A stretch of DNA of 64,000 bases from Sabellastarte sp. h YS-2021 (taxonomy: Eukaryota; Annelida; Polychaeta; Sabellida; Sabellidae), in contig OZ024936.1 in assembly GCA_964017235.1 (NCBI GenBank), forward strand, positions 35,548,040-35,612,039, written 5' to 3'. Positions 3,862-27,233 of the stretch are shown here, piece by piece. How positions within the stretch are numbered: position 1 is the first letter of the stretch; each line of letters opens with the position of its first letter. The notes under the pieces were generated by a model. That model saw nothing but the letters and a program-made list of their open reading frames with translations, was not told the DNA's origin and did no database searches. Position numbers and translations under genes: made by a program.

Positions 3862-3913
3862 ATGAGGATTTTAATTATTGTGGTGCTCATTGCTTCAGAA
3901 TATCTGACAGCAA
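3862..3913 (+). CDS. Copy 1 exon 1: signal peptide
   Basis: ATG at 3862 opens a frame with M-R then a hydrophobic core I-L-I-I-V-V-L-I-A and a small-residue end T-A, typical of a signal peptide of about 17 residues. The exon ends with one base of a split codon before GTAAGT at 3914, a strong donor. Phase 1 matches copy 2 exon 1. No clear TATA box is seen between the minisatellite and the ATG. Confidence 0.7.
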
Positions 3914-6900
3914 GTAAGTAGATCAAAACATGTTATTTATTCTCAGCATTATAACACTTGTAACAGGATTGAAGATGTATTCACGTCAAGTAAATATTTA
4001 ACAACAGTAAAAAATTTTAATGGTTTGCTGGAAAATATTATATAGACTCTCGTTTATTTATAGTGTGTGTCAATATTTCCCAGTTGAAGTCTGGGGTCCT
4101 TATTATTATTATTAAGTAAATATTATACACCCTGGCACTGGCAGTAAGTGATTTATATTCAAATTTTCAGTCGCAAAAGTTTATTTTCTTACCAGAAACC
4201 ACAGTGCAGGGCATTTTGTATTTCAATTTCAAGGGTGAAAGACACCTTTCCTCCTCCGTAAGGCGTTAACACCTTTTCGCAGGATATCTTTCATCACTTT
4301 CTTACAGGTTACCACTTTAACGCTACACTGCTTCAACCAGTCATATCTCCAAATAACAACAGTCATTACTGAAATTAACTTGATTGTGTGATGGGGCCTT
4401 TTTATGTTATAGTTTAATTACAATTACAATTTGCGTAGATTATGTTTTTGTGAAAAGAAAACCTCAAATGCCCATACATATAATTTATAAGTTTTAAATA
4501 TTTACTGTGTTTACATCAACTTAACCTTGTGTCCTATCTTACTCAATATAGAACTTAATCTCTTCAGCTAACCTAAAACCTAAATTAAATGCTTCATCAT
4601 TGTACTCAGTTTCACCTTATCTGACCTTGGGCCTCGACTGTATTCAAAACCTTGGGAAATAATGCTTCAGTCTGGATAATCTTGAGAATTTGATAGCCTG
4701 TAATACCACAGATCAGTAGAAAGTGCTGCGGAGAAAATAAAACAAAAATATGGAAATACTTGTCCTTAGAATCAAGATTTTACTTGTTTTAAACATAATA
4801 GTGTTTTACAATGATAACTTGATTCATAAAATGGAAATTTCATCCAATAATACCCACCTTGAAATGGCAGCTTAAGTTGGATTCAATTTGATTTATTTGC
4901 GTTTTGTCTTATTTATCTCATACTACATGGCTCATCACATCATCTAGTTGGGGTTAGAGGAAAGTAATTGTTACTGGTTGGTCAACACAACCAAGCATTG
5001 GCAGAAAATTTTGGAGCTCAGATCCATGATCGCTGTGTATGTGTGTATGTATGATACTTTAGGTGATGGGTTGGACTGCACAGTAAATACAAAGAAGAGG
5101 ATCCTCAACCACCACAAGCATCAGTCAGGGACATCTGGCTTCCTGGTGCAGTCTGATGTTGCCAATGTTGAAGACATGCTGAAGGGATCGAGAAAAACAC
5201 TGAAACTTACACAATCGTTTAGCTTCACTTTACAAGGTAAGAGGGAAGCCCGAGGGGTGCAGATAGCAATCTTATAAATGTCTTTGACATGTGTTGTACT
5301 TTGGCTGAGTAAGCTTAGTTGTTGCTGTAATTTCAGAAATATTTGGCTCTTATTGTGTTAAAGTAGGACCCATGAATGTCATCGATTCCACTGATTCCCA
5401 ACAAATACTGATATGCTATTAATCTTGTGAATAAAATTCACACAATCTACCAGAAAATAGTACTTCTTGAGACATATTCTCTTATCAATGCTTAACAACA
5501 TGTCCCCTGTAAAACTAAACTATTTAGTGACGCAAACAACTGAAAGGAGAATCTCAAGAAGAAACCAATTTAACAAAGGCTTTGAACATGCCTGGAAAAG
5601 CAACTGTATTGTTAACGACCAGGGGACAGCTTTTGTTGTAATAAGATTCTGTTGAAAAACTGAACAGTGATCATGTTAAAGCTCTGATCTGTTTCCACCA
5701 TATCCAGATAGATGTGTTCATAACAAAAAAAAAGGGATAAAGAAAGAGTGCTTGATTATAAATAACTTCATACTTTTTGCAGCTAACGGTACTCGTAAGA
5801 CTGAATACAAGGAGATACAGAAGGGATTCTGGCCAAAGCTCTTCTGTTTCACCTCCAGGTGTGTGGGCATGGTAACCCGTGACATCATTGGCAGGACTCC
5901 TGACCCCAGGAGCCAGCTGAATTCTGATGGGAGGGGGCACTGGATTCATTGGTGGGGTGAGAAGCATACACCTCAAATATTTGTTATTTTGCTGTCGTTT
6001 TGTTATACTATACTGTTGAAATGATCCTGTGTACAGAAATATAAATTTAAAAATATATAGGTTTATTATTCCACCAACAGACTCAGGAAGTCATGTTGGA
6101 CGCCAACCCAAGGGCAGGGGCCAACTGGAGTTGTGCCTTGCGCCAACTCACGGGAGTGAGTTGCCAATTTATTCCCCTAATGCCCAGTACTAGTCAGTGG
6201 CCACATGGCTTGTGATTGGTCAATTATTGACCCCAAATGTGGTTTCTATCTTAAGTTGTGACTGCACCATCTTGATCCTCTGATATAATTGGCTAATTAT
6301 TTAGCTGCAAGTAGTCAAGTATACAAGGTAACCTTTTAATTGTAATTTAGTTATTAAACATATTTTAATCTGTCAGTACCCGTAAACTGATGTTACAATG
6401 TGATTTTCATGATTTATCTGTACTGTTTATATATTTATATTTTTCACTTTAGTAACATAGAGATTTTTACTGTATACAACAATGTGTCATTTTATACAAG
6501 GCAAAATTGAAACAACACTGATTTCATTTACACTCACATTTTTCTACATAAAGATTTACTAATGACTAAGTTATTTAATGACAGATATGCTTTCCATAGA
6601 ATTTTTAATTCATATCAAACTGCTGTTATGGTGAACATATATATGTTTTAAATGTAAGTAAAGTATGGTAAAACGTGTATTTAATCATGTACAGTTCAAT
6701 TATTTTATACAATCTCACTACCTGATGACACAGGCTCATTTGCCTCCAAAAATATGAAAAAAATCATGTATTTTTGAAAAGATAGTTCCATGTAGAGGTT
6801 GCAGAGTATTCCAGGTTTATGTTTATATTGTATATGTAACAGGTTTCCTAATCATATGAAATTGTTGCTTAATGGTTGGCTCAGAGTTACACGTCACATA

Positions 6901-8391
6901 GAACATTGTAGCAAAGATTGAAAAGTTAACATTTTGTGAAATACTTTGATTGTTCTTTAAAATTGTTCGAAAATTTGTAAATATTTTAGGTTTATAGTCA
7001 TAATACAAAACATAAATATAACAGACGATACATAATTGGCTATAACAGTTTAACAATATACCAAGTATTAGAAAAAGAAAGCACAATATATTCCTAAAAT
7101 TATGTGCGCTAATATAAAAATGCACAAATAATTATAACCTAAAATGTAATCACTGGATCACTGGGTAATAACATATTGTTTGATCTTCCATGAATCACAA
7201 ATAAAATGTGCATGTTCCTTTTTTATGTGATTTCAGAATAACTTTCAATTTTTCTTCTTTGGACGTTTTTTTATTTTTTTTTAAATTTTTTTTTTTAATT
7301 TAGAGCATTTTTTTCAATAACGCTATGTCCAAACATTTACAGAGAAAATTGGTTTCATCTTTAACATATTCTTGTCTTACAACTTAAACAAGTCATTTTA
7401 TCTTTTCAAATTCATATACATATGTTGGGCGCGAAGTACCGATCTGCGCAATCTCAAGATTTCACTTGCGTGATCTCGTCATCAAAGTCATCAAAAGATC
7501 ACGCGCCCATCTCAAGATTGCTCAAGCAATCTTGAGATGGAGCTGCTCCAACTCACAATGATTTCTATCAGAGAATCTTGATGTGATTGGCTGTGTTTAT
7601 GTATTGTGTTGGTCAATGATTGGCAGATTTTTACAACACACTTTATTATGAGATTTAAGTAAGTATAAAACAGGTTTGTACATAAATGGATATTAAAACA
7701 GTAAATAAACATATTACAGGACATTAAACAAACATATTACATATTACAAACACATCATAAACATACATTAGTATATCTGATCAATTGAATTGAATGTGTC
7801 TTCTCCCTTTGCAATTAATTCACTTGATGGCCCCTGATTAACTCCCCTTATTGTAACAAGCTAATTGGATGACACATGGCTTCTCAATTTGCAATTGATT
7901 CACTGGATTGCATATCATACCTTAACTCCCCCATTCATTGTAACAATATAAATGAATTATATGTGGCCTTTCTATTCTAATCACTTAATGAAACAGAGAT
8001 AACCACCCATAATTGGTATATGTTGTTGAAAATAAAAATCATTGTGAGTTGGAGCAGCTACATCTCGAGATTGTTTGAACTATCTCAAGATGGGTGTGTG
8101 ATCTTTTGATGACGAGTTCTCGCAAGTGAAATCTCGAGATCGCGCAGATCGGTACCCAACAGGTATATTGCCTTCAACATCTTCTTATGTTTGAGTAAGT
8201 CATATCGGAAGATAGCGTCATTGTATTTTCTGTCCTTACAGAAGTTGCTGCCTTATCCAAAGAAGTTTAAACAACACTGCCTACCAGACACCGGCCCATT
8301 CGGGCGCGTGAAGTATAACTTTGCGCAGTCGCATGAGTGTAATACCATTGAAGTGAGAGGACTCTTCATGCGGGCATGTGTGGATAAATAA
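3862..8391 (+). CDS. Secreted six-cysteine protein, gene copy 1 (four exons; possibly broken)
   Basis: A predicted spliced gene with coding exons 3862-3913, 5063-5236, 5783-5956 and 8242-8391. Exon 1 is a signal peptide, so the product is probably secreted. Six cysteines align with gene copy 2 (19007-27233): one in exon 2, a C-F-x3-C pair in exon 3 and three in exon 4. Both copies share G-R-T-P-D-P-R in exon 3. Introns 1 and 2 are phase 1. The exon 3 donor (G then GTGAG) is phase 1, but exon 4 aligns with copy 2 only in phase 0. A simple join therefore shifts frame and stops early. This could be a pseudogene, a one-base sequence error, or use of a weak alternative acceptor near 8215. I do not recognise the family. 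Expected length is about 182 residues if the frame is kept. Confidence 0.7.
5063..5236 (+). CDS. Copy 1 exon 2
   Basis: The exon is 174 bp, flanked by 'actttag' and GTAAGAGG, phase 1 to phase 1. It encodes 58 residues starting near S-D-G-L-D-C; this cysteine aligns with G-S-C of copy 2. The end, S-F-S-F-T-L-Q-G, aligns with copy 2 S-T-S-F-T-L-K-G, placing the intron at the identical residue. Confidence 0.75.
5783..5956 (+). CDS. Copy 1 exon 3 with C-F-x3-C and G-R-T-P-D-P-R motifs
   Basis: The acceptor 'ctttttgcag' ends at 5782. The exon encodes A-N-G-T-R-K, then L-F-C-F-T-S-R-C and I-I-G-R-T-P-D-P-R, ending H-W-I-H-W-W-G before GTGAG. Copy 2 has the same motifs in the same order. The donor lies one base later than needed to match the phase-0 exon 4 (see findings). 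Confidence 0.75.
5957..7422. other. Copy 1 intron 3, first part: AT-rich, nothing recognised
   Basis: There is no supported coding sequence. A short G+C-richer stretch near 6080-6200 contains small palindromes (actcacgggagtgagt) and could be an eroded element end. The rest is A+T-rich with poly-T near 7260-7310. Confidence 0.45.
7423..8162. mobile_element. Long inverted-repeat element (MITE-like) in intron 3 of copy 1
   Basis: The left arm (about 7423-7560) and right arm (about 8036-8162) are reverse complements over about 125 bp with scattered changes. The ends are TGTTGGG and CCCAACA, and both arms contain 'accgatctgcgc' and 'gagttggagcagct' or its complement. No internal gene is seen. It ends about 80 bp before the exon 4 acceptor. 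A clear target duplication was not found. Confidence 0.75.
8242..8391 (+). CDS. Copy 1 exon 4 (terminal)
   Basis: The acceptor 'ctgtccttacag' with a good pyrimidine tract precedes an open frame of 49 codons and a TAA at 8389-8391. It contains Q-H-C-L-P, E-C-N-T-I-E-V and R-A-C-V-D-K, aligning with E-Q-C-I-P, R-C-G-E-I-L-V and T-G-C-I-D-E of copy 2 exon 4. This alignment holds only in phase 0. In phase 1 the exon stops after about nine codons. Confidence 0.7.
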   Translation, partial: KLLPYPKKFKQHCLPDTGPFGRVKYNFAQSHECNTIEVRGLFMRACVDK

Positions 8392-8461
8392 TGTGTGCTA
8401 AAAGCTCAGACTGCAGACTCAACCCAATTACAAAAGATATATGTTATCATAAGCATCGTAT

Positions 8462-8467
8462 AATAAA
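8462..8467 (+). promoter_or_regulatory. Polyadenylation signal AATAAA, copy 1
   Basis: A canonical AATAAA lies 71 bp after the copy 1 stop codon. It is the nearest such hexamer downstream and a plausible 3' end signal for the gene. Confidence 0.45.
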
Positions 8468-8699
8468 TTATCGATATCCAACTATGTTCTACTTCAGGAT
8501 CAACAAATCTATACAACACCAAAGAGTGAGCTATTTATACATAAACAATGAATTTTGTCTACCTTATTCATGAAAACTGATGTATCCCAGATCATCTTAG
8601 TACATCTGACCAGCCCAGTCTTTCTGCTTGAATACTAGGCATTTGGAATACTATTTAGGTTCAGTGTCAAGTTTAACACACTGCATAATAGTTTGTATC

Positions 8700-8870
8700 A
8701 CAATAGATAGCTTTAAGGGAGTGGAAACCATTACAGCAGATTCTGCATTGTAAACTGCCCGGAACCTGGTAAGCAACTACCAACTTTCACACACATGACC
8801 TGGGGTTTGAACCACTGACCTCAAAGGTGGAAGGCGAGTGTTACCCACTGCATTACCTAACCCCCTGAAT
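8700..8870 (-). repeat. tRNA-derived SINE-like repeat
   Basis: On the minus strand the segment reads 'acactcgccttccacctt' followed by 'ggtcagtggttcaaacccc', resembling a tRNA anticodon arm and a GTTCAAACC B box. The other part matches the dispersed family seen at 2215-2335 and 43690-43790. It is probably a Pol III-derived SINE fragment rather than a functional tRNA, since no full cloverleaf is evident. Confidence 0.5.
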
Positions 8871-9342
8871 ACTAGGTAGATTATAAATATATGTTGGATG
8901 CTCACAGTCACAAGAGTAGTACATACAAAATTTTAAAAGAGACCTTTATGTCTTCAAAGGCATTACTTTAAAAGAGTTGTATTTGATACTTATGTCATCA
9001 AGTCAAAATCCTTAAATTAACATTCAATGCATGGTTAATAATAATAGACAAAATCAATAAGATAAGGACCTATCAGGTGAAAGGTAATATTAAACCGCAT
9101 TTACTAGAAGCTCCAAAATTTACTGCATCAGTATTCAGTAATAAACTGAACATTCAAACCTCTCAACAGACTGTGCCTGAATATTTTCTTGTTGTTCAGT
9201 TCAGTACAGTCTTCTTTCAAAGGCAACAAATCTGATATTTTAGATTCTAATAAATTATAGAAAATGGCTCATATAAAATTTATAAATAAGAACACATGAG
9301 CACTTCAGTTTGTCGGTTTTTAAAACTTTAGTAACTGAACTT
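8871..9342. other. Spacer, nothing recognised
   Basis: AT-rich sequence between the SINE-like repeat and the left end of Harbinger element A. No gene or repeat structure was recognised. Confidence 0.45.
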
Positions 9343-9468
9343 TAAGCGGGTGTTCCACTGGAGCAGACCAGTCGGTAACTATGTCTTTTTGTGGAGTTGG
9401 GACCAATGTTTACATAGTTGCTTAGGGTCAGTTGTAGTTTCCAGGCTTGTCAGAAGAGTTGGTGAAAC

Positions 9469-9484
9469 ATCAAACATGTTTGAT
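9469..9484. promoter_or_regulatory. Subterminal palindrome ATCAAACATGTTTGAT
   Basis: A perfect 16-bp palindrome lies about 123 bp from the left end of Harbinger A. The same or nearly the same site lies at a similar distance from an end in Harbinger B and in three related TAA-flanked elements (see findings). It may be a transposase or accessory-protein binding site; this is inference. Confidence 0.55.
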
Positions 9485-9890
9485 ATTTCTGTGACCGTTG
9501 CCGACCCTTGTAACAGACCCTAATTTCATCCACCTAGCAACAGACCTGTCAGTTAACTTAACGGTCTGTTGGTTACACTTCCTGCCTTAATTGTTGGTTA
9601 ATGAAACAGGCCTGTCTCTATCAAGTATCCGGCTTGTACCAAACATGGTGTTCCAGACTGTATGTGATGACAAACAGACTGTGTGGGAAAACATACAGTA
9701 CAATAGGTAACTTCAGCCAGCTTGTCTGTAAATGTTCCCGACTGGCCTGGAAAAGTTACTTTTACCATCTGGGTCCTACAGTCAGGAATTTTTATAACCG
9801 ACAGGCAAGAAAGTTTAGCAGACAAGTTGTAAACAGTAGCTGAAAGGCCTGTTACAGTAACAGACAAGCCTTGAAAGTGACCGACAGCCA

Positions 9891-11382
9891 GGTGTAGCAT
9901 CAGATAATGTATCCCTCAAAAAGTGTTTGGGGATACCGAATATGACAAGTGGGGCTGTCAGATTCTGTATCCCCTGTTTATTTCTGTACCCCCTTGTCAT
10001 ATTTTGTATCCCCTGAGGTGGAGCTAGTCCTAGCGGCATTCGAATCACATGTGCATCTAGTTTGTTTTGCTTTGTGATTAACAAATACAATGTTTGTTGT
10101 GCCTATATGATGTATTAGTCTAGCATTCTTTTGAACTTGATTTGTTTAACCTCTGGTTGAGTGACCGGCTAACAGTAATAATGGGCATTGTTTTAAGACG
10201 CTTTAATGTGTTTTGGATGTGATATTTTACATGTTTATCTGTTTATAAATGAAAAGCTTAATTTAATCATAATTTTCACTTGTTTAAATGCTAAGTTCTT
10301 TAAAAGACAATAGACAATTACCCATCCGGGTTGGGTCTTGTACATTTGGACTCATATAACCTGATAGAAAAGTCCATTTTGATGTGCATATGGCAGAAAT
10401 TCATTAAATTAACTTGTTTGATTTATTATATTTTCATATTAATTAGTGTCATTTGAAGAGGAAATTTTATAATTCTTTGTTACATTTTATAAACAGGGTC
10501 ACCTATAAAATCATCCTACATAAAACTTAGTTTATTTAGCCCCATTATTTAGAATTAAGCCTCATTATATTTAGAGATTACTTTGATGTTGATTTGTTTC
10601 ACTTTATGATTTGGGGTATTCCCTATTGTGTACTTCACCCACCCCAACTGAAACAAATCAGCATAAATATAATGTTGTACAAATCTAATTCAGAAATCAT
10701 CCCAATGAATGACAAATCAACATCAAAGGGATATTTTAATGTTCAGGAAACACAATTCATTTTAGTTTGCTACAATTCAACACTATTGGTTGAGGCCAGA
10801 TTAAATATTTATATAAAATCAGAAAGAATGCACAAACTAAAACTTCTGTATAAAGGTCAGTTAAGTTGATCAATATTTATGTTTTTACAAAATGTCATGT
10901 AATTTTATTTTATTTGCACATGTTTGTTAATATTTTGATTGTATTTAGCATAAAAATCATTGTTGAATTTTATTAATTTAAATTGGCCTGATATGTTTTC
11001 ACACATCTTAAGATAGGTTGATTCCTAAGTTTGGCTCCAACATCAAAATGTCTTTTTATACAATGTGTTTTAACTTATTTGGGTCTTGTTGCATAAATAA
11101 AGCTTATACAATGTGTTATCAAAGTCTGTTTAACACCTTTTTTATAACAACCCAATGATTATATCTTGTTTTCATATAATTGGCCTTAATATAACTTGCC
11201 TTAATCTCCCTCCCCAAAGGCCACCTCAAAGGGATACAGGTTTTGATGGGATACAATATTTGATTGTCAAATTGTGCATCCCCTTAATTCCTCTATTGTT
11301 GAGGATACAAAATATTTTGTATCCCTAAAAGATCAAAGAGGGGATACATATTTGATGGGGATACATAATTTGGTGTTACACC
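9891..11382. mobile_element. Inverted-repeat element nested in Harbinger A, rich in GGGATACA motifs
   Basis: The left end GGTGTAGCATCAGATAATG matches the complement of the right end over about 25 bp with four or five mismatches. Both subterminal regions carry several copies of gtatccc or gggatac pointing toward the ends. No transposase gene is visible; frames at 9815-10090 and 10594-10869 have no recognisable domains. No target duplication was identified, so the superfamily is unknown. Confidence 0.65.
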
Positions 11383-11429
11383 GGCAATAATTTCTCATCT
11401 TACGGCCTGTCAGTTTCAAAATTTGTGGC

Positions 11430-11436
11430 TATAAAA
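11430..11436 (+). promoter_or_regulatory. TATA box of Harbinger A ORF1
   Basis: TATAAAA lies about 210 bp upstream of the ORF1 start codon. Equivalent TATA boxes precede the other three Harbinger genes in the window, which supports this one. Confidence 0.55.
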
Positions 11437-11645
11437 GGGTCAGTCGGCACACGTACTTCATTCATTTGGGGTTTGACTGTCAAGAGAGAAGAGGTGTGCA
11501 GGTTTTGAGTTTAAAGGGTTTTTTTCAGATTAGCTTAGGTTTTAAGTTAGGCTGGACTGGCTAGGAGTGAAACTTGTTCTCTGAGGTTTCACTGTTAAGT
11601 ATAAGTTTTTGTTTTTTGAAGAAGCTGTACATGTAATTTGACAAG

Positions 11646-12838
11646 ATGCCAAGGGGCAGAAGGAGAAAGATTGAAGTACCTACCGATTCTCAACCACAGT
11701 TTGAGTTAGGAGATACTGCTGCAGATATAGAGAAAAGAAGAAGAGAGAGAAGAGAGAGCAGAGAGGGAGAGACAAGAACAGGATCAGAGGGAGAGAGAGA
11801 GGTTGGAAAGAGAGAGGATGGAAGGGACCAAGCAGATTGAAGAGACTGAGGAAAGAACAAAAAGTGACCTCAAACAGACACAGATACTGATATAGAATCA
11901 ACTTAATCCAGGCAGATGAAGGACCAAATGAAGGTCCCAGGAATTTATCTGTAAAAACTGTCAAGAAGTAGTTTGAGACGCAACATACCAGATATGGCAA
12001 GCTCACTCAGACGAAGTCAGGACAAGCTGCAGTAAAGAGCACCGAAAGACAGACCTGGTTGAAGGACAGTTTCAGTTTTCTATGAGGTCACATCAGAAGG
12101 AAGGGAGTATCTAAGTCTTCTGCGTTCAAGTCACCACTGAGACCTTCAGCGGCCACAACCACGTCTTCAGTTCTGGATACTTCACAAGAGACTGAATCTA
12201 AGATGGAAATTAGCATGGCACCAGATGTTAGTAATCAGCCCTTGACCACAAGCCCTTCACACCGACCAGCTGCTGTTACCACCACCACTGCTGAAGATCC
12301 AGTTTTAGATCAGTTCCAGCAGATGAGGTCGATAATTTCCAGTTTTTGGGTGCATATCAGGACTCTTCTCCAAGTCCAAGACAGTCGTTCTGCAACTATC
12401 TCCACTATGAGATGGAACACCTGGAAAAGCAATTTTTTCACCTTCAGGAATGAGACAGTGAAACGTCTTAGTGGAATACAGTACAAGGCAGAAGAATGCA
12501 AGAGACAGGTCACAACAACTCAACAGGTCATAACATTTCAACTTTCAGAAGCAACACAGGCCACAGCAGGACGTGAATACATACTCACAATACTGGATAC
12601 TCAACTAGTCTCTGCACTAGTAGTGCAGCCAACTCCAACAGCAGCACCTCAACCTGCAACAGTGATTGCCAAAGTTCAGCAACCACAGAGGCCAGCATCA
12701 GTGACAGTACAACCTGCATCTTACCTAGCTGTGGATCACCAGCAGCCCGGGACTTCCAGACAACTGATGTTTACTTTGAGCCCAGCAAAGACATTTAACT
12801 CGCCATCCGTTGCCTCTGGACAACAGGAAGACAGTTAA
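11646..12838 (+). pseudogene. Harbinger A ORF1 (accessory DNA-binding-type protein), frameshifted
   Basis: The start M-P-R-G-R-R-R-K-I-E-V-P-T-D-S is homologous to element B ORF1 (M-G-P-K-K-G-R-R, then K-V-P-T-D-S). A charged R/E-rich coiled-coil-like segment follows and soon meets a stop. Homology resumes in another frame (12203-12838), where D-Q-F-Q-Q-M-R and F-x-T-F-R-N align with B. PIF/Harbinger elements normally encode a second, Myb-like protein that helps import the transposase and bind DNA. A Myb domain is not evident here. The gene is broken by at least one frameshift. Confidence 0.65.
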
Positions 12839-13981
12839 CGCAACACTTCAGTATTGTCAAGTCTCTTTAGAAGTATTCCAAGCATACTACAGTACCAGCA
12901 GATTGACACACCACAACCATTTTCACCCTCCCAACTTCAACCAGCACTGTCACCAGTGCCAACTACCACTCAGCAAAACAGTCAAGACCTCCCAGGCAGT
13001 CCAGCCAGCAGAGTCAGCCCAAATCAGCATATTAGCCTGCATTAAGTCACACCAATGAGCCCTTATTAGGGCAACCCGAATCTTCCCAAAACAATTATTC
13101 AGCTGCTTGTTTGTCAAAAACAAAATAAAGTGCACCATCCAACACTTACACTTCCCCCAAATACATAACAAAAATTGTGCGAATGAATGAGTGAATGTTT
13201 AACACACAAAAAATTTTAAAAATCGAAACACATTCAGAAAAGAAAAATTAAACCTAAAAAAATTCAAACACACACACAAAAACACACACACACACACCCA
13301 AAAAAAAAAACACGCACACCCAAAAAATATCTTTGTGATAAGTTAAAGTGGAATGAATGTGTGGATGGACTGATAGACAAACAGTGTTACAGACCAACAC
13401 TTCAAGTGACAAAAATATTCCACGACATGACTGACAATTTGGTGACTGACTGACTGACTTAAATGTTATTTGTTGATCACCACCTCATTGAGTATCATTC
13501 TGAATTTTCAAATTTCCAAATTTTAAATGGAATTTTGTTGTGTTTCTGGGTCCATATTATTCCAAAATACTATTATTATTATTTTGTTGGTTTTTTTTTT
13601 GGAACTGAGATAAAATAAAGAAAGTATAATACATGTGTGTGTAGGTTTTGAACTTTGACATTTTTAGGACTTAAGTTTAAATCTCTATGGGATTGTGATT
13701 AATTTTTGAAATGACATTCTTCAGAATGTTGGTTAAAAAGGGCTATTTTTTACATTTTGATTTGAATCACACTGGTTGGAAATTTGGTTTAATGTTTGTG
13801 TAACACTTTTGCAATAAAAGTTCTTGGATTATTTGGGTAGTCCTACAAAGGACTGGTAGAGGACAGCATGTTCTCCCCTCAGTATTCTTAAATTCTGTCC
13901 CCTTGTCTAGCCAGTGCCCCAAGGTTATTGAAATAGTCTTTCAGTAGGTGTTGTTGATGTTTGGCCTCCCACAATGGATTT
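12839..13981. other. Central part of Harbinger A; CA microsatellite, no further gene
   Basis: This is the region between the two convergent genes. It contains a degenerate CA/A-rich microsatellite at about 13262-13325 and 'gactgactgactgac' near 13440. The homologous centre of element B is equally non-coding. Confidence 0.5.
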
Positions 13982-15007
13982 CTAGAGTTCTCTCTTTTTT
14001 TGCTCCGCCTGGTCAGCTTGTGATGGTAGAATGCTGTCTGCCATGTGTGGGTGGCCTATCTGCTTCCCCTGATGGCTTCTCAGCATGTTATGTAGTACCA
14101 CACATGTTAACACAATGTCTCTCACAACTTTTGGCCTCTGCTCCATGGTAGTCAGCAGCACCCTGAACCTTCCCACTAATATTACCACCCTCCTGTCCCT
14201 GGATATCCTGTAGTTGGCTATTCTCTCTGCTCTGGTCAGTTGTCTTCTGCTGTAGGGCTTGACCAACCAAGGCATAAGGGCAAAAGCATCATCCCCCAAC
14301 AAAAAGTAGTATAGATCTGGCCCTCCAAGTCCCATTGTTTCTGGTAGTGGTAGCCTCAAGGTGCCATTTTCAATTATTCTTTTCAGTTTGCAACGGTTGA
14401 ATATCTGAGCATCAGATGAAGCACCACTGGCCCCCCACATTGACCCACAGAAACTTGTACTCAGCATCGACTAGGGTTAACAGTACCAGTGAGAAACAAT
14501 CCTTGTAGTTGAAATATTCACTGCCTGACTTCTTGGGCTTCTTCATAACAAAGCGTTTGTCATCTAGTGCACCTACAGCATGGGGACATTCCATTTGTTT
14601 TTAAATTTCTCCCCAATCTTTCTCCAGTCTTCAGACATGGGGGACAAATTAACAAATGGTAGTTCTTCCAACCCTCCAGTGGTACTGCAGTAAAATGTAG
14701 CTTTCTCCTATGGATAAATGTCTCAATGTAACTGCCAGTTTCAAACCAACTTCCAGTGGCTTCCTGAAATTGGTTGGTTACTACCTCAGACAGGGGTAAA
14801 TTGTTTCTTCAATTAAGTAAAAAAAGCAGGTAGTATCCTGATGAAATTACTGTAGCCTGGTATGTCAGTTGTGATTAGCTCGTCCAAGAATGTTCTGTAG
14901 CATCCTTTCTCCTCTCTTTGCAGTATCCAGGAAGTAACCCATGGATTCTGAGGCTTCCTCCTTCTACGTGGTGGGGGCTGTGGCTGTGGTGGTGCTGGCT
15001 GGTGCAT
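13982..15007 (-). pseudogene. Harbinger A transposase (DDE_Tnp_4 / HARBI1-like), inactivated
   Basis: The minus-strand frames give, in order, L-Q-R-E-E-K-G-C-Y-R-T-F, P-H-A-V-G-A-L-D-D-K-R (first catalytic Asp region), S-D-A-Q-I-F-N (second Asp), L-L-G-D-D-A-F and R-R-Q-L-T-R-A-E-R-I-A-N-Y. The third catalytic residue, in V-E-N-A-F-G-I-L of element B, is missing: R-R-V-V runs straight into I-L-V-G-R-F through a small deletion. Frames change several times. This is a cut-and-paste transposase that can no longer act. Confidence 0.85.
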
Positions 15008-15163
15008 GGTTCTGTTGTCTTCTGAGTCTTGAAATCATGATAAAAAATAACATATTCAACTCAACAAAAAACAAAAGACCCTCAACTTGTCAAACGGTTC
15101 ATCTTGATGTGTTGCTGTCATCTTTGCAGTGAGAAATGAGCGGCTCATCACAGGTGATGGAGG

Positions 15164-15171
15164 TTTATATA
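15164..15171 (-). promoter_or_regulatory. TATA box of Harbinger A transposase
   Basis: TATATAAA on the minus strand lies about 160 bp upstream of the transposase start. The same octamer precedes the transposase in element B at 19618-19625. Confidence 0.55.
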
Positions 15172-15544
15172 GTGTGATATGGATCCCGATTCTGGATCCC
15201 GACTATAGATACTGACCCACAAAATCAATCAGTCGTATAGGGATTGGTCTGGAACATGGTCCCGGCTTGTCTGTTTATCTAGACTAGAGTTGTCTGTCTG
15301 TGATGTGGCTTGTCTGTTAGGGATTTACGGCTTGTCATACTACTTCTACGACTGACCGTACAATAAACGTCCCTGACTGTATGTCTTGTCAGTGCAGTCA
15401 TCATGTCCTGTCTGTAAGTGTAGCATCTTGTCGGGATTTCCTCACTGACTCAGTATTTTTGCGCCCTTTTTCTATGACCTTACGACTTTCACAACTGACC
15501 CTTGGGTCGGTTGCAGGGTTGGCTCCAGTGGAACACCTGTATAA

Positions 15545-15992: not shown

Positions 15993-15995
15993 TAA

Positions 15996-16220: not shown

Positions 16221-16309
16221 GGAGTTTTTATAGTTGCATTCATTTGATAAATATGGACTGCTTTTATTTATTATTAATGCAAAGTGGGTGATAAAAGTAA
16301 CATCAGATA

Positions 16310-16960: not shown

Positions 16961-19000
16961 ATCTACGCTAGAGAAGACAATTCTCATCAATCCATTTTTA
17001 AGTGACAAAGAGATAGTTTCTAAAAACTATAGAGGTTTTGTAGATACAAACAATTAATTTCACTCGCAGATTCAGTGGATTAAATAACCAACCCCGAGTA
17101 ACAGAAACAGATTAAAAAGTTGAACATCTTGCACTGGATCCAGATTCATCCACAATTGCTATAATAGTGAATATGCTGTTTTACATCCTTCTATTATAAT
17201 CTAATGTTGCTGATGTCAAATCAGGCTTGAAACCTACTTAAATTTTCTGAAAACAAAAATTTATATGAAAATAGTCCTGAAGGTATGTAAAGCTAGAGTG
17301 CAGAAGGTGTGTAGCTAGACGATAATAGGACTAGTGTTATATTTAGAACATGTGAATCAACTCCTTTTTCAAAGCTGGATCCGCCTCTGCATTTGCTTTT
17401 AATATGGCACAGAAGGCCGTTTAACTGGCTTGGAGAACATAGTTACAATAATTGGAAGTAAAAATGAAAGAATTTTTCATCTTTACCTGTGTTTACCTGG
17501 CTCAATTTGGCCACAGGACTGGAGAAGCGCAGTTTCCATTCGTTCAATTTTGCTAGCTATCACATGATCATTGGCAAGTGCACAGAAATTACAAACAGAT
17601 GAAAAATGAAATTAGAGACATATTTTTCAATGAATACTGCATAGATTAACAGTGAGTTTGTGTTATATTTACAAAAAAATCACTGATCGATATTTTAAAC
17701 TGGTATGAAGTTCTAGACTTTTTATGGAAGCAACTGAGCGAAAGTAGGAATCATGTTTTGGCAAGTGCCTGTCGTTGTTTATTTTTCTGCAGTAAAAGTT
17801 GTGCTGGTCTTTCATTTTATAACTGCCCATTGGAAGATGGTCCCATGCCACTGTCGCCAGCCTGTAGGAGTTTATTTTGATCTATACTCCTAAATAATAT
17901 ACAAAAAGAACTTATGTAGTCATAGTGCAGATGATATACCCAGCTTATTTTGGTTTATTGACCATATAAATTATGAATAAAAATTTTTTTCTTTCACTGA
18001 TCATGACTGCAATATTTGAAAGACTTGTTTCATTCCAATATGTCATCTCAAGCAACTAAGACAGTATCTGACAGATTAAGCTGCTATCTTGGCAGCAAAT
18101 GCCTTGGTGAGTAGTCTTCACGACCATTGGAACTGTCGCTCATAATTTTTTCCAGTTTTAACATGAGCAAACAGCGGTGTATCCAAAATCACATTAGGAT
18201 TGTCACAAACTGTAATAGATACATACAGGCATCTCCCATTTTTTGAAAGACTGTCGCTGTGTCTTCAATATGGCCACTTCAGTTTCTTCACAGTGGACAT
18301 CCCAGCTATTTTGATTCTCTTTTATCTATTTGTAGTGGTAGATATGGGACAAGATAGAGCCGTCCGGGTAAAACGTTCTTGGAGGTTCCACAATTCTACC
18401 CATCTGAACAAAAATTTTTAAAAACTTTTGGCTTTTGGTGCTCCCACAGTTCGGATGATTTACCTGATGATGTTTACTCTGCCCCAACCCTTGCTTGTTT
18501 CAGGAAAAAATCTTATCTCTTAAATAAGAGTTTCCCACCTTAGCCTATAAACTACCTGGCATCTCCATGGTAGCAATCTGGCTATGTCAATGGAATAATG
18601 ATATATTGAATTGGTTTCTGGTGTTGTTCCTAGTCGATATGGCCAAAGATTAAGCACTATGAAAGTCTAGAAAAGAATAGAACCCTCAGTCCGTAATTTA
18701 AGCCATTCAAACAGATCCTTCTGCTACAATAGTATAAATAAAAATAAAATACCAGCATATGTGTATAGAATTATTTACACTGACATAACTTTGAAAACTA
18801 AAACTTCTTAATAACTCCTTTTCTAAACAACTTCTTTCAACCAAAGCAACTTTATTACAGACAGATGTTTCATCTCCCAGCCTTTGCAATAACATACAAT
18901 AACAACACAGCTCGGGTTATGGTTAATACGTCTTGAGAAGTACACATACAGAACTGTGGAATTCAATAAACAAGAAGCATTGGCTTACCCCTTAGATTTT
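16961..19000. other. Spacer upstream of gene copy 2, nothing recognised
   Basis: AT-rich sequence with short frames on both strands and no recognised domain. It presumably includes the promoter of gene copy 2. I could not identify a TATA box close to the ATG at 19007. Confidence 0.4.
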
Positions 19001-19006
19001 TTCACA

Positions 19007-19061
19007 ATGAAGGAATTATTTTGTGGGATTTACTTCGTCTTATTAATATTTTCAGTTGCAG
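19007..19061 (+). CDS. Copy 2 exon 1: signal peptide
   Basis: The ATG at 19007 opens M-K-E-L-F-C-G then a hydrophobic stretch I-Y-F-V-L-L-I-F-S-V-A, a typical signal peptide. The exon ends after one base of a Gly codon, before GTTGGTG at 19062. The donor is weaker than in copy 1. Confidence 0.65.
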
Positions 19062-22000
19062 GTTGGTGTGAGTTTTAGTAAAGTGTATTTTTGACATTGT
19101 CAAATTCAGCAAAATAACTTTTGTTAATGAAAAAACACCAATGTATGTTTTCTTTGTGAATTCTGAAATGTTCTTGTTTTAACCTATGGACTTGTATAAT
19201 ATACAGAAAGTGGAAAACCTGTACCCAGTACATAGTTCTGTCTAATGGGGCTGTTCCATTGGAACCAACCCTATAACCGACTCTTTGACTCTAGGGTCGG
19301 TTGTAAAAGAAGTGGAATCAGGGGACAAAAATCATTAAAAAGTGCATGAAAATGCTGGATCAGTTACATCTCTGCAACAAGACGTAGCACATACTGGCAT
19401 GTCTGGATCCAGATCCTGACCTGACTTGGGGTTGGGATCATTTTCTTCACAACAAGATGTGAAAGTACCGCAACAATTCATGAACCCCTAACAGACAAGC
19501 TGTACCAAGCCCCGACAAGCCGTACTGACAAACAGACAAGACTGGAACATTCCCCCCACCTCGACTGGACTGATTAAACCCTGCAGTCAGGATCCAGAAT
19601 CAGGATCGAAACAAAACTATATAAACTCAGCAGCACAGCAACAGCCCAGCCAACCCCCAGGAGAAGAAGAAAGACACCAAACCCTTGGGTCATGCCCTGA
19701 AACTTCAAAGACAAGAAAAAGGATGCTACAGCAACCTCCTGGTTGATTTAATACACACCGACATCCCAGGATACCAGAATTTTGTCAGGATGCCACTTGC
19801 CTTTTTCATCTCATCGAAGAACGCATACACGACCACATCAAGAAGTCAGTCACCAATTTCAGGAAGCCATTAGAAGTTGGACTGAAACTAGCAATAACAC
19901 TGAGACACCTGGCCACTTACAGGTCCTTGCAGTATCACTGGTTGGTTGGCCAAACCACCATCTGCACATTCGTCCCCCAGGTCTGCAGACTCATCCTTGG
20001 TGAATTCCAGGATGAATATTTGAACTTCCCTAATAGCCCTGATGAGTGGAAATGGGTGGAGAAGTTTAGAACCAGATGGAATGTCCCCCATGCTGTAGGG
20101 GCAATAGACGGGAAGCATATCACCATGAAGAAATCAAAGAAATCAGGCGGTGACTATTACAACTACAACAGCTTCTTTTCCCTGTGGGTCAAGTGGTTCT
20201 TGCTCAACCGTACAGATTTTCAACAGAAGCGTTTTGAGGGAGAAGATCAACGATTGTAGCTTGGGACTTCAGGCACCTGAACACTGGGGGAGGGACGGCC
20301 AGATTTGCATTAATTCTTGTTGGGTGACAACGCATTTACCTTGATGCCATGGATGGTGAAACCCTACAGCAGAAGACAACTCACAAGGGAAGAAAGAATA
20401 GCCAACTACAGGATCTCCAGAGGTAGGAGGGTGGTTGAAAATGCCTTTGGAATCTTAGTGAGCCACTTCAGGGTACTACTGGGCACCATGGAGCAAAGCC
20501 CAAGGAATGTCAGAGACATTGTGTTTACATGTTTGGTGTTGAACAACATGCTGAGGACACACCAGGGAGGAGCAGACAGGGCATCAACCCAGAAAATGAT
20601 GTAGTAGCCCTACAAAATAAACAGACGGTGTATGTGCCTAATGAGAACAATGGAAATCCTTCGAGGGAGGCCAAACATCAACAAGAACTATTGAAAGACT
20701 ACTTCAGTCATGTGAGGGCATTGGCTGGGCAGGAGGACAGTATCTGAGATGTGTCAACCAAACAACCCTGGGGGAGAGTCTGGCATCTATCAATCTTTTC
20801 AGGACTACTACCCAGTAAACGTTAGAAATGTTTTTAAATGGTTTAAACGTTTACAAAACGTTTTTAAAACCTAACTAAACCCTATCTTTGGTTTTCTAAA
20901 CGTTTCTAAGTAAACATTTATGCTGTAATGTTTAAAAAACGTTTTATAAACATTCTCTATACAAAAATTTTTACAGAAAATGTTTATTAAACGTTTATAA
21001 AATAACTCAAGAAGCTAGGTATGACTGGAAACGCTTTTAAAACATTTATAAAATAGCTGAAGAAATTAAGGTTTTGCTGGAAACACTCATCATGAAATCT
21101 TTGATAAACAGTTCACATAAAATGTTTAAACAACATTGATTGTCAAATGTTTTAAAAACATTCTATCAAAAACGTTTTTTAAACCTATAATTTTAAACCT
21201 TCAAACATGTCCAAACAAAGATGGCGGTGAGCAATAATAGGGGATTTTCCTGGACTTTGTCAAAAATTGCCCCACATGCAATCCCTAAAAGTAAGAACTG
21301 AAGGGGGGCACAGTTTCTAAGCCTCTATCTTACAATTTTAGACATAAAAATAATATTTTCAATAGTGAGCAACCATACAAAGATATTGAATTTGACCTCT
21401 GACCCCATTATTATTCAGACATTATTATGTTCATTTATAACATTTTTCTAACATTTATCGTTAAATGTTTAATAAACGGTTTTCATGAAACGTTTTAAAA
21501 ACATTCTATTACAAATGGTTTTTGTACCCATCATTTTTTAACCATTACCAAACGTTTCCTTTCAAATGTTTGCAAAACCCAAAAATGTTTACTGGGTATG
21601 AATCCTTTTCAGGACTACCCAATTATTCCAAGAACTTTTATTAAAGCTGGTGTTGCTGAAATTTTCAACTAATTTCCAAACAAAATCCAATTCATTTCCA
21701 ACAAGTTTCAAAACTTTTTCAAACCAAATCACAAGTCTCCTGTTTCAAAAAATGAACCCAAGTTATGTAAAAATGACCCCACCCCACCCCCCCACCCCCA
21801 TGTTAAAATTTATAATTTTAAAAAAAAAATTTCAAAATTATTTTTATAGATTTTTTAAAGTTCAAAACCAACCAATTCTTAAAAGTTTCTCAAAGAGTCA
21901 AAGTTCTCAAGGTCGAATCCAAAGGTCAAAATAATATTTCCCCCAAATGTCAGACCTTCTTTAAACTCTAAGAATTTTTTTTTAATTTTTATTTTTGGCT

Positions 22001-25000
22001 CGTGCCTTTGCCCCATTTTTTTGCCAAAGTTTTTAAGTTCTTTATCATTTTTTAAATTAATTTTTTTTTAATTTATTAAACAAAATAGTTTTTTTTTCTT
22101 AGTTCAAAATCGTTTAAGATGATTTTTTTTAAAAATTAAAGTTTTTTTTTCTTCAACTTTTTTTCTTCAACTTCAAATTTTTCTTCATTCACACACTCAT
22201 TCATTCAATTTTTTTGTGTTTTTGGGGCCAAAGTGTTTTGTGTGGGGCGGTGTAATGCTTAGTTTGGTACTTTTAAACAGCAGCTATTAATTGTTTTTGG
22301 AAGATTCGGGTGGTCCTGAAAAGGACCTTTAGATTGTTTACAGCAGTGGCTGTAGCTGTGTTTGCTGGGGCTGACGACTGTGTTCTTCTACCCTGCTTTG
22401 GATGCTGCTAAGGAGCTTCACAGACTTGTTTCTGAATGTCTGAAAGTCTTTCTCTTCTAATCCCTCCACCTCTGACGCCAGGTAGTTGCAGAAGACTGTA
22501 TGTGTTATGGTCTCCTTTTGCCTGGGGACTGATGACATCATGGTTCTCATCTGCAGTGTAAACTGATCTATGACCTGCTGGTCGACCGAAGAGCACCCTG
22601 AAGCTATGGTGGGGCTTGTGACTTGTTGAGGCTGTAATGTGGTGTCTGTTGACCGTATGCTGATCTCCATACTGTCCATGTTGGTTGAAGCTTTGAGGAT
22701 GTTGTGTTCTGAAACAGCTGAAGCACTGGCTCCTTGGGCCTGGGACTTGAAGCCTGATGATTTGCTGAGTACCTTGCATCTGATGTGCGACTTCAGGAAT
22801 CCAAATTTATCCTGTATCCATTTCTGACATTCCATCATCTCTTTCGGGACCTGTCAAGATTTTGATTGCGTCAGCTTGCTGTAACGTGTCCTTTGCGACT
22901 CAAACCAGGTCTTGCACACCTTGACAGACAGCAGTGACTGTTGGCGAATCTCTCCTAGAGACACTCCTTCCTTGATTTGTCCAGGAAATGTTCATTAGTC
23001 TTGTCATACAACTCTTTGTGATCCTTCACAAAGTCGACAAAAGCCTCCTCATCCAAATCTGTCAGGTATATGTTGGTCATGCTGCCCTTCTTGTATCTTG
23101 AGTGTGATGATTGTGATGTTCCTGCCTCTCCTCCAGTCTCTGTTTCAGTGTAGCTTCATCCCTTCTTGCTTCCTCCCTCCTGGACTTCCCCTCCCTTTTT
23201 TGTGCCTGTTCCTCCCTTTCTCTTTCCTCCCTCTCCTCCCTCATCCGCTGTATATCTGTCACTGTGTCACTCAGCTCAAATTCAGGAACACTGTCAGTGG
23301 GAACTTTTATCTTCCTCACTCTTCTGCCCTTCTTAGGACCCATTTGCCTTTGTTAAAGAAGCAGTGTTTTGTGAAAAACAAAATCCTAAAATATAAATTC
23401 AGCCAACTTCAACTCAACACTGCCCCAGCTTATTGTACAAAAAAGTATTCTTGGTACGCTGCCAGATGTAATCTGTCAGATGCTAGATTCCAAATGATAC
23501 ATTGTGCAAACCAACTCTCCTTATATAGACAGAGTTTTCATCTGCAGGCAAGCCGTGGGTCATAAAAATGAAGCCAGCTTGTCCTACACACTTCTCAGCT
23601 TGTCCATTGTGTAACACCTTGTCAGTTTCTGTTTATGGCTTGTCTGTTTCTGTTCCCGGCCTGTCCTGCTGAGATGTTACTGACTCTATGGTTGAAGACT
23701 GGGACACTTCCCATCTTGAGGTGAAGTGTCCAAGTCAGGTCAGTTATGTTTATGACAGGCCTGTTTGCTTTCAAGTACGGTCATTTTGTGTTCACTGCCT
23801 GTCTGGAGGTGGAGTCCTGGTACTTAACCAAGACAGGATGGCAGGTTTTTCAAGAAAAGACAGTAATAGTATAGGACAAGATGAGAAGTGTGACCAACAA
23901 GCCATAGATATCCACAACAGGATGGTTTCCAGATGGGTGGAGCCACAGTCCAGATATAGAGTTGTGGAGGGTCGGTGAAATATCAAACATGTATGATATT
24001 TTGCTGATTCACCATGACAAGTCGGGAAACTACAACCGATCCTAATCAACTCTGTAAACATTGTTCCCGACCTACAAAAAAAACCTAGTTACCGACAGTT
24101 TGGCTCCATTAGAACACCCCCATAACCTCATGATAGCCTTATGTGATGTTTTTTAATTTCCACTGTTTCAGGGGAAGACGGCAGTTGTGAGCCTGGCTTC
24201 AAGAGAACTCTCCTCAATGCTGAAGTAAGTAAGGACTTTACTGTGACGTCAGAGGGGCACGAGATTCAGGAATTGCTTCATGGCTCAGGCAGCAGCTTTA
24301 ATGGAGGTCATTCTACTTCCTTCACACTGAAAGGTGACATAACTTTATAATAACATATAACTTTAAAAGCTACTCGGATTGTAGATGATATGTTGAATCA
24401 CTGATATTTTACAAAATTATAATCTAGTAAAATGTCAATGTAAAACTACTAAATCCTTTGGAAAATAAATTCTGCGTTTATTACCTAGTCTTGGACAGCA
24501 AGAAGCTTCTATCGCTGTGTAGCTTTGTGCATAAGCCAGTATTCTCAGTCAGCAAAGTCCAAGTCAAATGACTGTAAGTCCAATGTCCAAAAGACAGTAT
24601 ATATGTTACAGGCAATCAGTCATTTCAGTCATTTCGCAAAATGCCTAACCAGTTAAGCTATTTTGCGAAATGCCTGGATATTTCATGTAATGACTGAAAC
24701 ATAAGGTTCGGTGTTACACAGATTGCCTAAACAAGTATTTGAGATTTCAGGCAATCTGTTTAATCATCTTTTTAAAGTATCTTTTTGATAGAATATGATT
24801 ATTTCTTGTTATAAGCAATTCATGACGTAGCTTTAACTATATGTCAATAAATGAAGAACCATTTTGATATATCTCATACAGTTTTGTATAAATGAGTAAA
24901 TAAACAGTTTTACTACATAGTCATTCACAATGATATATTCCATATGTATTCTTATTTTACTTGTAAGAAGAGCACTATGTTCAAAACATTTTTTCGTTGT

Positions 25001-27233
25001 TAGTATGGTCCCTGATGTTACTATGTGGCTTCTTTTATTATATCAAATACTTAGACTTTGGTTTGAAATTTCAAGCAGTCTGTGTGACTATCTTTTTTAA
25101 AATGTTACTTATAGGAAGTGTTATTTTTAGTGATAGAAGTAATACAAGTTATACTTTTAATTGTAGGACAAGTATTTAATGTATATTTTGATAACTCTCA
25201 TACTTTTGTGTAATTGAATAAATAAATCAGAGGTTTTGCAAATGTGATTGATAATAGTCATATATTCTGTACCTCTTTTAATTTACTTGTAAAAAGGGCA
25301 GAATGTCCAATTGTTTTGTTTTGTTTTAATTTTTCTTTTTTTTTTCCAAGAGAGTATGTTTTCTGGTCTTATTATGTGGGGGTCTTTAATAATTATATGA
25401 AACAAATACTGAAAACTTTGATATCAATCCTGTTTGATGAAACAAGCTTAATTGCAATTAGCACACTCCAGCATTTTTTCACATCAAATCACTCAGCCTG
25501 AGCTTGTTTGACATAAGTGAGTGTTCTGCACAAATGTCCCTCATTGAAAGGTAATTAGCAGGTGACAATGACAAGATATTTTATGTGAAATCAAAGGTGC
25601 AAGAACCTGAAGAAGGATTTTAATGATTTACAACTCACTTGTGAACAATCTTTTAGCTTTAAATAACTTATATAATAGTTTGACGAGACTGATTACTGAT
25701 ATTTTACTAAGTAAAACTTTTGAAGAGAAATTTAAAACTGAGCTATTCAAGAAACATTAAGCTGATAAGAAAGCTCTGATACCAAAGAACAGTTTACTAC
25801 AATGATTTAGGAGCTGATATTATTTGCTCCAAGTATAATGTGTAAACATGTAGACAGATTCTCTGTTTTGATATTTTAGTACAGTCATGTAAAGTTTCAC
25901 TGCAGACTTTGATCACAGAATGATATATATGTAATAACATTGACTCTGTTGATGAGAGCACAATATTTATAAACATGTCTTGGTCAATTATGTCACTTTT
26001 TCATAACATTACAGTTAACATTCTATAATATTTGTAATTATGTATTATTTTCTTTTCTGTATACTTTGTATGCATAGTGATAACAAAACAGTTTCCATAA
26101 TATTAGATATTTTTAATCATTATATAATTTTCATTAAAGTTGTTCATGGATGGACATAAAATATATTTTAAGTATACCACAAATATGGATAAAACTATAT
26201 GTCAAATAATTTATGAATAATTATCAAACATGATAAAAAAACCTATGTTCAGGCATTATAGATAATGCCTAGAGCTCATGTTCACACCTAACACAAAATA
26301 ACTAGGCATTTCGCAACATGCCTAAACTGTTTAGCCATTGGCTGAAATGTTCAGTCATTACACTAATGCCAGGTTACACAGATTGCCTGTAACATATAAA
26401 TTGAGCGCAACACAGAATACTAGTGAAACTCTTTGCCAACCCAAATACTTTGTATGCACACAAACTGGGTCTCTATTTTCAGCAACCGGTGAACGGAAAG
26501 GTCCTATGGGTCCTATGTCCAGAGGATACAAGGCACACAAGCTTTGTTTTCACACAAAATGTGCCAAGGACCTTTATGTTGTGTTTGTGGGAAGAACCCC
26601 TGACCCCAGGGTTGTGCGTGTGGATGGTGAGGTCATAGGCTGGTCTGGTACTGGAGGAGGGCTGTCAAGATGGCGGGTGAGAGCTGATACTCTGATACCA
26701 TTAATTTATTTCCGTAAAGAAATTGTGAGTAATATTTATCTTGTTACTGTTCTGTGGCATTGAATGATCAAGTATTCATCAAAATGTCTATTACCCCACC
26801 ACTAACCATCTACACACAGCTTTGCAATGGCCCTACCTTAGTTTTAATATATAAACTTAATACTTGATCTGATTTTTCAGTACATACACAATGACTGTTA
26901 TTCCAAAATACAAAATCTGGAATAAAACCTTCCAATCTCTGTGCTTTTAATGGTTTAATTTGTATTTTATCTTTTATATTATCCTTTCTGTGTACACAGC
27001 ATGAGATAGAGAACCCAGGAACGTTTTCAGAGCAGTGTATACCTGCTGGAGGGATGCATGAGAGAATCACATTCTATCTGACAGCCACTCCAAGAGAAAG
27101 AACTCGCTGTGGAGAGATCCTGGTTAAAGACTTACATCTCACAGGCTGCATTGATGAGGCGATACAACCAACAAACAACACACCTAAACACGATCACATT
27201 TCTGTTGTGATCAACACAGATGGGAAAAAGTAA
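19007..27233 (+). CDS. Secreted six-cysteine protein, gene copy 2 (four exons, intact)
   Basis: A predicted spliced gene with coding exons 19007-19061, 24172-24333, 26483-26676 and 27000-27233. Joined, they give 214 codons plus stop with no phase conflict: introns are phase 1, phase 1 and phase 0. Residues 1-18 form a signal peptide, followed by a secreted domain of about 196 residues. Six cysteines align with copy 1, as do G-R-T-P-D-P-R and the intron positions. The C-terminus extends about 27 residues beyond the last cysteine, farther than in copy 1. Intron 1 contains a whole Harbinger transposon and intron 2 a 1.8 kb inverted-repeat element, so transcription must cross both. Family and function are not recognised. 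Confidence 0.75.
19618..19625 (+). promoter_or_regulatory. TATA box of Harbinger B transposase
   Basis: TATATAAA lies about 65 bp upstream of the first transposase frame and is identical to the octamer in element A. Confidence 0.55.
19685..20747 (+). pseudogene. Harbinger B transposase (DDE_Tnp_4 / HARBI1-like), inactivated
   Basis: Frames show, in order, Q-E-K-G-C-Y, Q-Y-H-W-L-V-G, P-H-A-V-G-A-I-D-G-K-H (first Asp), then after a deletion G-S-C-S-T-V-Q-I-F-N, L-G-D-N-A-F-T-L-M-P-W, R-R-Q-L-T-R-E-E-R-I-A-N-Y and V-V-E-N-A-F-G-I-L with the catalytic Glu. It ends in D-Y-F-S-H-V-R-A-L-A-G-Q. Compared with element A, about 13 residues after F-F-S-L are deleted, and the second catalytic Asp (S-D-A-Q in A) is replaced by S-T-V-Q. 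At least three frame changes are present. Confidence 0.85.
20809..21598. mobile_element. AAACGTTT-rich TIR element (MITE) inserted in Harbinger B
   Basis: The ends are TACCCAGTAAACGTT and AATGTTTACTGGGTA. Both flanking regions are dense in aaacgttt-like motifs. A central block (about 21190-21420) with 'aaagatggcggtgagcaat' recurs in reverse complement at 30520-31012. A 14-bp direct repeat CTTTTCAGGACTAC lies at 20795-20808 and 21605-21618; the right copy stands 6 bp away from the element end. Confidence 0.75.
21650..22330. other. Central non-coding part of Harbinger B, T-rich
   Basis: A/T homopolymer-rich sequence corresponds to the region between the convergent genes in element A ('ggtcctgaaaaggacc' here, 'gtcctacaaaggac' there). 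The 94-codon frame at 21650 is low-complexity and not called. Confidence 0.45.
22338..23343 (-). pseudogene. Harbinger B ORF1 (accessory protein), frameshifted
   Basis: On the minus strand the start at 23343 gives M-G-P-K-K-G-R-R-V-R-K-I-K-V-P-T-D-S, then a long R/E-rich segment predicted as a coiled coil, stopping at 23077. Homology to element A ORF1 resumes in 22838-22338 with D-Q-F-T-L-Q-M-R, T-F-R-N-K-S-V-K-L-L and a Q-rich end. It is probably the second protein of a PIF/Harbinger transposon, broken by frameshifts and stops between 22840 and 23077. Confidence 0.7.
23521..23527 (-). promoter_or_regulatory. TATA box of Harbinger B ORF1
   Basis: TATATAA on the minus strand lies about 180 bp upstream of the ORF1 start, a position similar to the TATAAAA of element A ORF1. 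Confidence 0.5.
23982..23997. promoter_or_regulatory. Subterminal palindrome of Harbinger B
   Basis: ATCAAACATGTATGAT, one base away from the perfect palindrome in element A, lies about 125 bp from the right end. Confidence 0.5.
24172..24333 (+). CDS. Copy 2 exon 2
   Basis: The exon is 162 bp, between 'ctgtttcag' and GTGACA, phase 1 to phase 1. It encodes G-E-D-G-S-C-E-P-G-F and ends S-T-S-F-T-L-K-G. It carries the first conserved cysteine and matches copy 1 exon 2 in intron placement. Confidence 0.75.
24600..26398. mobile_element. Inverted-repeat element in intron 2 of copy 2
   Basis: The termini TATATGTTACAGGCAATC (24600-24617) and its exact complement (26381-26398) are perfect over 18 bp. 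Both subterminal regions carry the small palindrome GGCATTTCGCAAAATGCC or relics of it and 'cagtcatt' motifs. The inside is AT-rich with a weak internal duplication (about 24780-24920 and 25080-25230). The flanking TATA may be the target duplication. No transposase was found. Confidence 0.75.
26483..26676 (+). CDS. Copy 2 exon 3
   Basis: The acceptor 'ctctattttcag' leads into A-T-G-E-R-K-G, then K-L-C-F-H-T-K-C and F-V-G-R-T-P-D-P-R, ending S-R-W-R before GTGAGAG. The donor is in phase 0, unlike the phase-1 donor in copy 1. Confidence 0.8.
27000..27233 (+). CDS. Copy 2 exon 4 (terminal)
   Basis: The acceptor 'ctgtgtacacag' leads into H-E-I-E-N-P-G, E-Q-C-I-P, R-C-G-E-I-L-V and T-G-C-I-D-E, then a polar tail to TAA at 27231. 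It is 77 codons in phase 0, joining cleanly to exon 3. Confidence 0.8.
   Translation, partial: HEIENPGTFSEQCIPAGGMHERITFYLTATPRERTRCGEILVKDLHLTGCIDEAIQPTNNTPKHDHISVVINTDGKK

Follow-up and report, generated by a model that had tools for sequence, protein, structure and literature searches.

A putative orphan family of small secreted cysteine-containing proteins in Sabellastarte sp.

Two neighbouring genes in a 64,000-nucleotide stretch of the Sabellastarte genome (C14:35548040-35612039, hereafter the window) probably represent an orphan, diverged family of small secreted, disulfide-stabilised and probably beta-rich binding proteins; we put the probability of this reading at about 0.6. As far as can be judged from sequence, the genes look real, and a third family member on another contig, C8, supports their structure. 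After the leader, the mature chains of the two products would be about 165 and 196 residues long, probably with three disulfides.

Two neighbouring genes and their conservation

The sequence-only reading described two four-exon gene models on the same strand, and matching exons are indeed found in copy 1 (3862-8391) and copy 2 (19007-27233):

3862-3913, + strand: copy 1 exon 1, with the start codon, a hydrophobic leader (MRILIIVVLIASEYLTA) and the donor gtaagt in phase 1
5063-5236, + strand: copy 1 exon 2, with the first conserved cysteine and the donor gtaaga in phase 1
5783-5955, + strand: copy 1 exon 3, with CFTSRC and GRTPDPR; the GT donor lies at 5957-5958
8242-8391, + strand: copy 1 exon 4, with the acceptor ccttacag, three cysteines and the stop codon TAA; in frame only with an exon 3 end at 5955
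19007-19061, + strand: copy 2 exon 1, with a hydrophobic leader (MKELFCGIYFVLLIFSVA), phase 1
24172-24333, + strand: copy 2 exon 2, phase 1 at both ends
26483-26676, + strand: copy 2 exon 3, with CFHTKC and GRTPDPR and a donor in phase 0
27000-27233, + strand: copy 2 exon 4, with three cysteines and the stop codon TAA

Copy 2 looks intact. Its four exons splice to 214 codons plus the stop, with GT-AG borders at all three introns and phases 1, 1 and 0.

The two copies are about 28-30% identical at the protein level. In a two-sequence BLASTP comparison of the spliced products, using a 191-residue reading of copy 1, the identity was 28% with an E value of 2e-20. The relationship extends over three of the exons when each is compared with 2000 shuffles: exon 3 scored 74 (shuffle maximum 45), exon 4 scored 57 (maximum 46) and exon 2 scored 51, narrowly above its maximum of 49. 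Among window ORF segments of at least 20 residues, the top non-self match of copy 1 exons 2, 3 and 4 was in each case the corresponding exon of copy 2. The six cysteines of the mature protein and the GRTPDPR motif align between the copies, as had been proposed from the letters. The leader exons gave no alignment beyond chance (688 of 2000 shuffles scored as high), and the earlier idea of a shared signal-peptide exon is thus not borne out.

Different synonymous codons are used at 32 of the 51 identical residues of the two copies (M and W left out), implying that selection acted on the protein. Over 174 aligned codons, the first, second and third positions differ at 98, 79 and 122 sites, respectively. 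These patterns point to conservation at the protein level after duplication. The rapid divergence that had also been suggested cannot be inferred without orthologues.

A third member on contig C8 and the last donor of copy 1

The genome (1,785,957,881 bases, 1.79 Gb, in 647 contigs) was searched with both products. At E values up to 10, copy 2 gave six matches, five of which come from the two window genes and one from C8 (E 0.8, residues 1-72, a leader-plus-exon-2 piece); all five matches of copy 1 come from the two window genes. Each search scored 8 candidates, and of copy 1 the copy 2 query recovered a single exon, which shows that diverged members are missed in this way. Against copy 2 exon 2 the score of the C8 piece was 66, with a maximum of 50 among 5000 shuffles, and against copy 1 its score was equalled by 12 of 5000 shuffles. 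Profiles of exons 3 and 4 were then compared with 7284 ORFs, translated in six frames from 264 kb of C14 and 40 kb of C8. Apart from copies 1 and 2 themselves, the best ORF for each profile was on the minus strand of C8, with an E value of 0.046 for exon 3 (next ORF, 1.4) and of 0.16 for exon 4, where the lead was narrow (next ORF, 0.3). Both matches are situated downstream of the C8 leader exon and in the right order, and the chance of the two positions together is about 0.002 by ORF counts. Canonical splice sites give this member the following exons, with inner phases of 1 and 0 that agree with those of copy 2:

C8:17713604-17713379, minus strand: leader and exon 2, which form a single exon
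C8:17707560-17707358, minus strand: exon 3
C8:17700228-17700066, minus strand: exon 4

For exon 3 of this member, the score with copy 2 was reached by 0 of 3000 shuffles and that with copy 1 by 266 of 3000. For exon 4 the corresponding counts were 60 of 3000 with copy 2 and 18 of 3000 with copy 1, and an earlier shuffle test of the exon 4 piece was weak (33 of 5000 and 349 of 5000); the exon was accepted because of the collinear profile matches and the splice phases. Exon 4 reads to a phase-1 donor without a stop codon, which suggests that the C8 gene may continue, and no further C8 exon was recognised by eye among the ORFs. Within 100 kb on either side of the window, tblastn at E values up to 5 and the profiles revealed no further copy of the family.

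Copies 1 and 2 have leaders that are hydrophobic by eye and then the six cysteines, four of which (Cys24, Cys99, Cys174 and Cys187) are invariant in the three-way alignment. Cys94, Cys150 and GRTPDPR are not kept in the C8 protein, which has further cysteines besides the aligned ones, and the cysteine frame that the sequence-only reading called fixed is not so in this third member. Its proposal of phase-1 introns holds for introns 1 and 2. Intron 3 departs from it, being in phase 0 in copy 2, as it is after exon 3 of the C8 member, while copy 1 shares phase 1 after exon 2 and has its last donor one base off.

The displacement arises where copy 1 exon 3 ends: a run of four G (5954-5957) stands in place of the three in copy 2, and the extra G shifts the GT donor one base beyond the position that the phase-0 join of copy 2 and the C8 member requires. 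When this donor is joined to the good acceptor that precedes 8242, the frame is lost and a stop follows nine codons into exon 4. A canonical join that stays in frame would start exon 4 at 8216, but it translates an apparent polypyrimidine tract. The same picture would be expected of an assembly error, an allele or a pseudogene. Either the G run at the last donor contains an assembly error and copy 1 is functional, or copy 1 is decaying. That copy 1 is a decaying pseudogene, with copy 2 and perhaps the C8 member as the only functional genes, appears somewhat improbable to us. The misplaced donor, the early end of the canonical product and the phase 0 after exon 3 in both other members argue for decay. 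Against this, the four exons of copy 1 are open apart from the extra G and the stop codon is in place. The lesion is a single G added to a run, and one extra base in a G run is a common kind of assembly error. The many identical residues with synonymous changes also speak of long selection, although this selection could predate a decay of copy 1.

Transposons and histone-type stem-loops around the genes

The surroundings of the two genes contain the following repeats and elements:

3130-3790: 29-base tandem repeat of 22.8 copies, ending 71 bases before the copy 1 start codon
about 9346-15541: Harbinger-type element between the genes, related to the next, with inverted ends and TAA on both sides (by eye)
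19246-24122, strand not assigned: PIF/Harbinger-type element in copy 2 intron 1, with inverted ends, TAA at 19243-19245 and 24123-24125 (by eye) and a DDE_Tnp_4 match within 20314-20601
50185-54293: large tandem array of a 169-base unit, 24.4 copies with 95% matches, flanked on each side by 147-base arrays

Intron 1 of copy 2 is 5110 bases long, and all but 230 of these belong to the Harbinger-type element with its flanking TAA. The open frames of the two window elements match only the last part of DDE_Tnp_4 (positions 48-158 and 78-158 of 158). With regard to the proposal that copies 1 and 2 are the only multi-exon genes of the window, ten other ORFs were compared with Pfam; three matched transposase or reverse transcriptase and seven gave nothing at E 0.01. 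Other transposons are present nearby by the look of their ORFs. A tRNA search found none.

In the window and 100 kb on each side (264 kb), three Rfam matches reached the gathering scores, and every one is to the histone 3' stem-loop (RF00032). A fourth hairpin of five pairs was obtained by aligning the two window elements and then folding. The four are:

window 22286-22332, - strand: histone 3' stem-loop, 36.6 bits, in the Harbinger-type element of copy 2 intron 1
L019:5670-5715, + strand: histone 3' stem-loop, 35.2 bits
L025:6491-6536, - strand: histone 3' stem-loop, 34.3 bits (gathering score 34)
window 13058-13104, + strand: fourth hairpin, below threshold

The stem-loop in intron 1 lies 8 bases past the last sense codon of an ORF at 22341-22853 (- strand). 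In L019 the stem-loop follows, at a distance of about 30 bases, an ORF of 440 residues with a MADF DNA-binding domain, and in L025 it follows the longest ORF upstream at about 330 bases. The fourth hairpin was missed both by a permissive Rfam scan of 12800-13900 and by a pattern scan. The stems vary in sequence with pairing kept, and a similar AATCTTYC-A-rich stretch lies downstream. A transposase match was obtained only for the two window elements and a MADF match only for L019; the accessory ORFs of the window elements have no Pfam match, and their resemblance to the MADF ORF of L019 is by eye only. Together, these features suggest that these Harbinger-like elements may use replication-dependent histone mRNA 3'-end processing. 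A search of the literature by title gave nothing relevant joining the histone stem-loop or SLBP with a transposon or Harbinger.

Family placement, fold and possible role

The earlier description of the products as secreted-looking and cysteine-framed, with no recognisable family, agrees with every search that was run. Pfam gave no family at E values up to 10 for the spliced readings of copy 1, copy 2 and the C8 member (its filters drop most matches above about 0.1), and the single match of the C8 leader piece by itself spans eight residues, with a score far under the cut-off. Sequence and profile searches of the PDB stayed at chance level, with best E values of 0.95 for copy 2, 1 for a two-sequence profile and 1.2 for a three-sequence profile. 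NCBIfam, PADLOC and PHROGs gave nothing for copy 2. Among 5.8 billion predicted proteins, copy 2, the exon 3 profile and the two-copy profile (213, 13 and 741 candidates scored, respectively) found only the exon 3 ORF of the window itself (P0001); these libraries are apparently mainly microbial or unspliced, and absence from them is weak evidence about animals. Viral contigs, and GTDB contigs scanned with two peptide patterns, yielded pattern matches and no relative. When phage sequences were searched with the DNA of exon 3, 19 records gave short matches at E values of 2 to 8, which were taken as chance.

A beta-rich fold is suggested by a weak prediction and by the look of the sequence. AlphaFold models of single exons were poor, with mean pLDDT of 48.0 and 39.8. 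Cys94 and Cys150 of copy 2 are both without an aligned cysteine in the C8 protein, a hint that the two may pair with each other; the C8 protein has other cysteines. In the mechanism that we propose, the hydrophobic leader would direct secretion and the mature chain would fold into one disulfide-stabilised, mostly beta-strand extracellular domain, which may attach to a matrix or glycan surface or bind a ligand. What is bound would have come to differ between the copies, on a scaffold that was in large part retained. The products may act as effectors, ligands or matrix proteins.

Alternatively, the family might be one already known from animals, such as a MAM-like or other jelly-roll extracellular domain, diverged beyond the reach of profile searches, and we place this only a little short of even odds. 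The C-terminal half resembles, by eye, the strand pattern of beta-sandwich domains. Phase-1-bounded modules are common in animal extracellular proteins, and the phase-1 donor at the end of C8 exon 4 would be in keeping with such a module. The present proteins are like the MAM domain in being (putatively) extracellular and cysteine-stabilised, in a length of about 160-170 residues and in ending in a strand followed by a conserved cysteine, but they appear to lack its N-terminal signature. MAM was sought through Pfam alone, which gave no match to it at E values up to 10 for any of the three members; the empty Pfam result for all families, within the limits of its filters, and PDB profile matches only at E 1 or worse weigh against a known family in general. 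An origin of the exons from a transposon or repeat, the possibility that the sequence-only reading had set against its own, is very improbable. The surroundings do hold transposons, and copy 2 intron 1 is mostly a Harbinger-type element. Yet the searches of the 1.79 Gb, each with 8 candidates scored, gave 6 and 5 matches at E values up to 10; ten of the eleven are exons of copies 1 and 2, and the other is the third member. Nor is there a Pfam match, to a transposon domain or to any other, at E values up to 10.

The orphan secreted family remains the reading that we prefer. It is rather unlikely, in our estimate, that the members define a new animal extracellular domain family, in which three exons with inner phases 1 and 0 would form a unit that stands alone, as a small secreted protein, on C14 and that possibly opens a longer protein on C8 as its first domain.

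The closest comparison in kind is with lineage-restricted secreted animal proteins that have a cysteine frame, which include shell matrix, immune and reproductive proteins. The present proteins are like these in their putative leader, short chain and conserved cysteines on a diverged background, and in forming a small family with a neighbouring pair; the resemblance is one of kind and not of homology, with no named sequence relative. Lineage-restricted secreted families often have a role in immunity, in reproduction or in the shell matrix. There is nothing unusual in itself about finding an orphan secreted family in a large genome. If animal protein databases give no relative, the genes would represent a lineage-restricted secreted family that can be tested through its exon frame, its cysteines and its three members.
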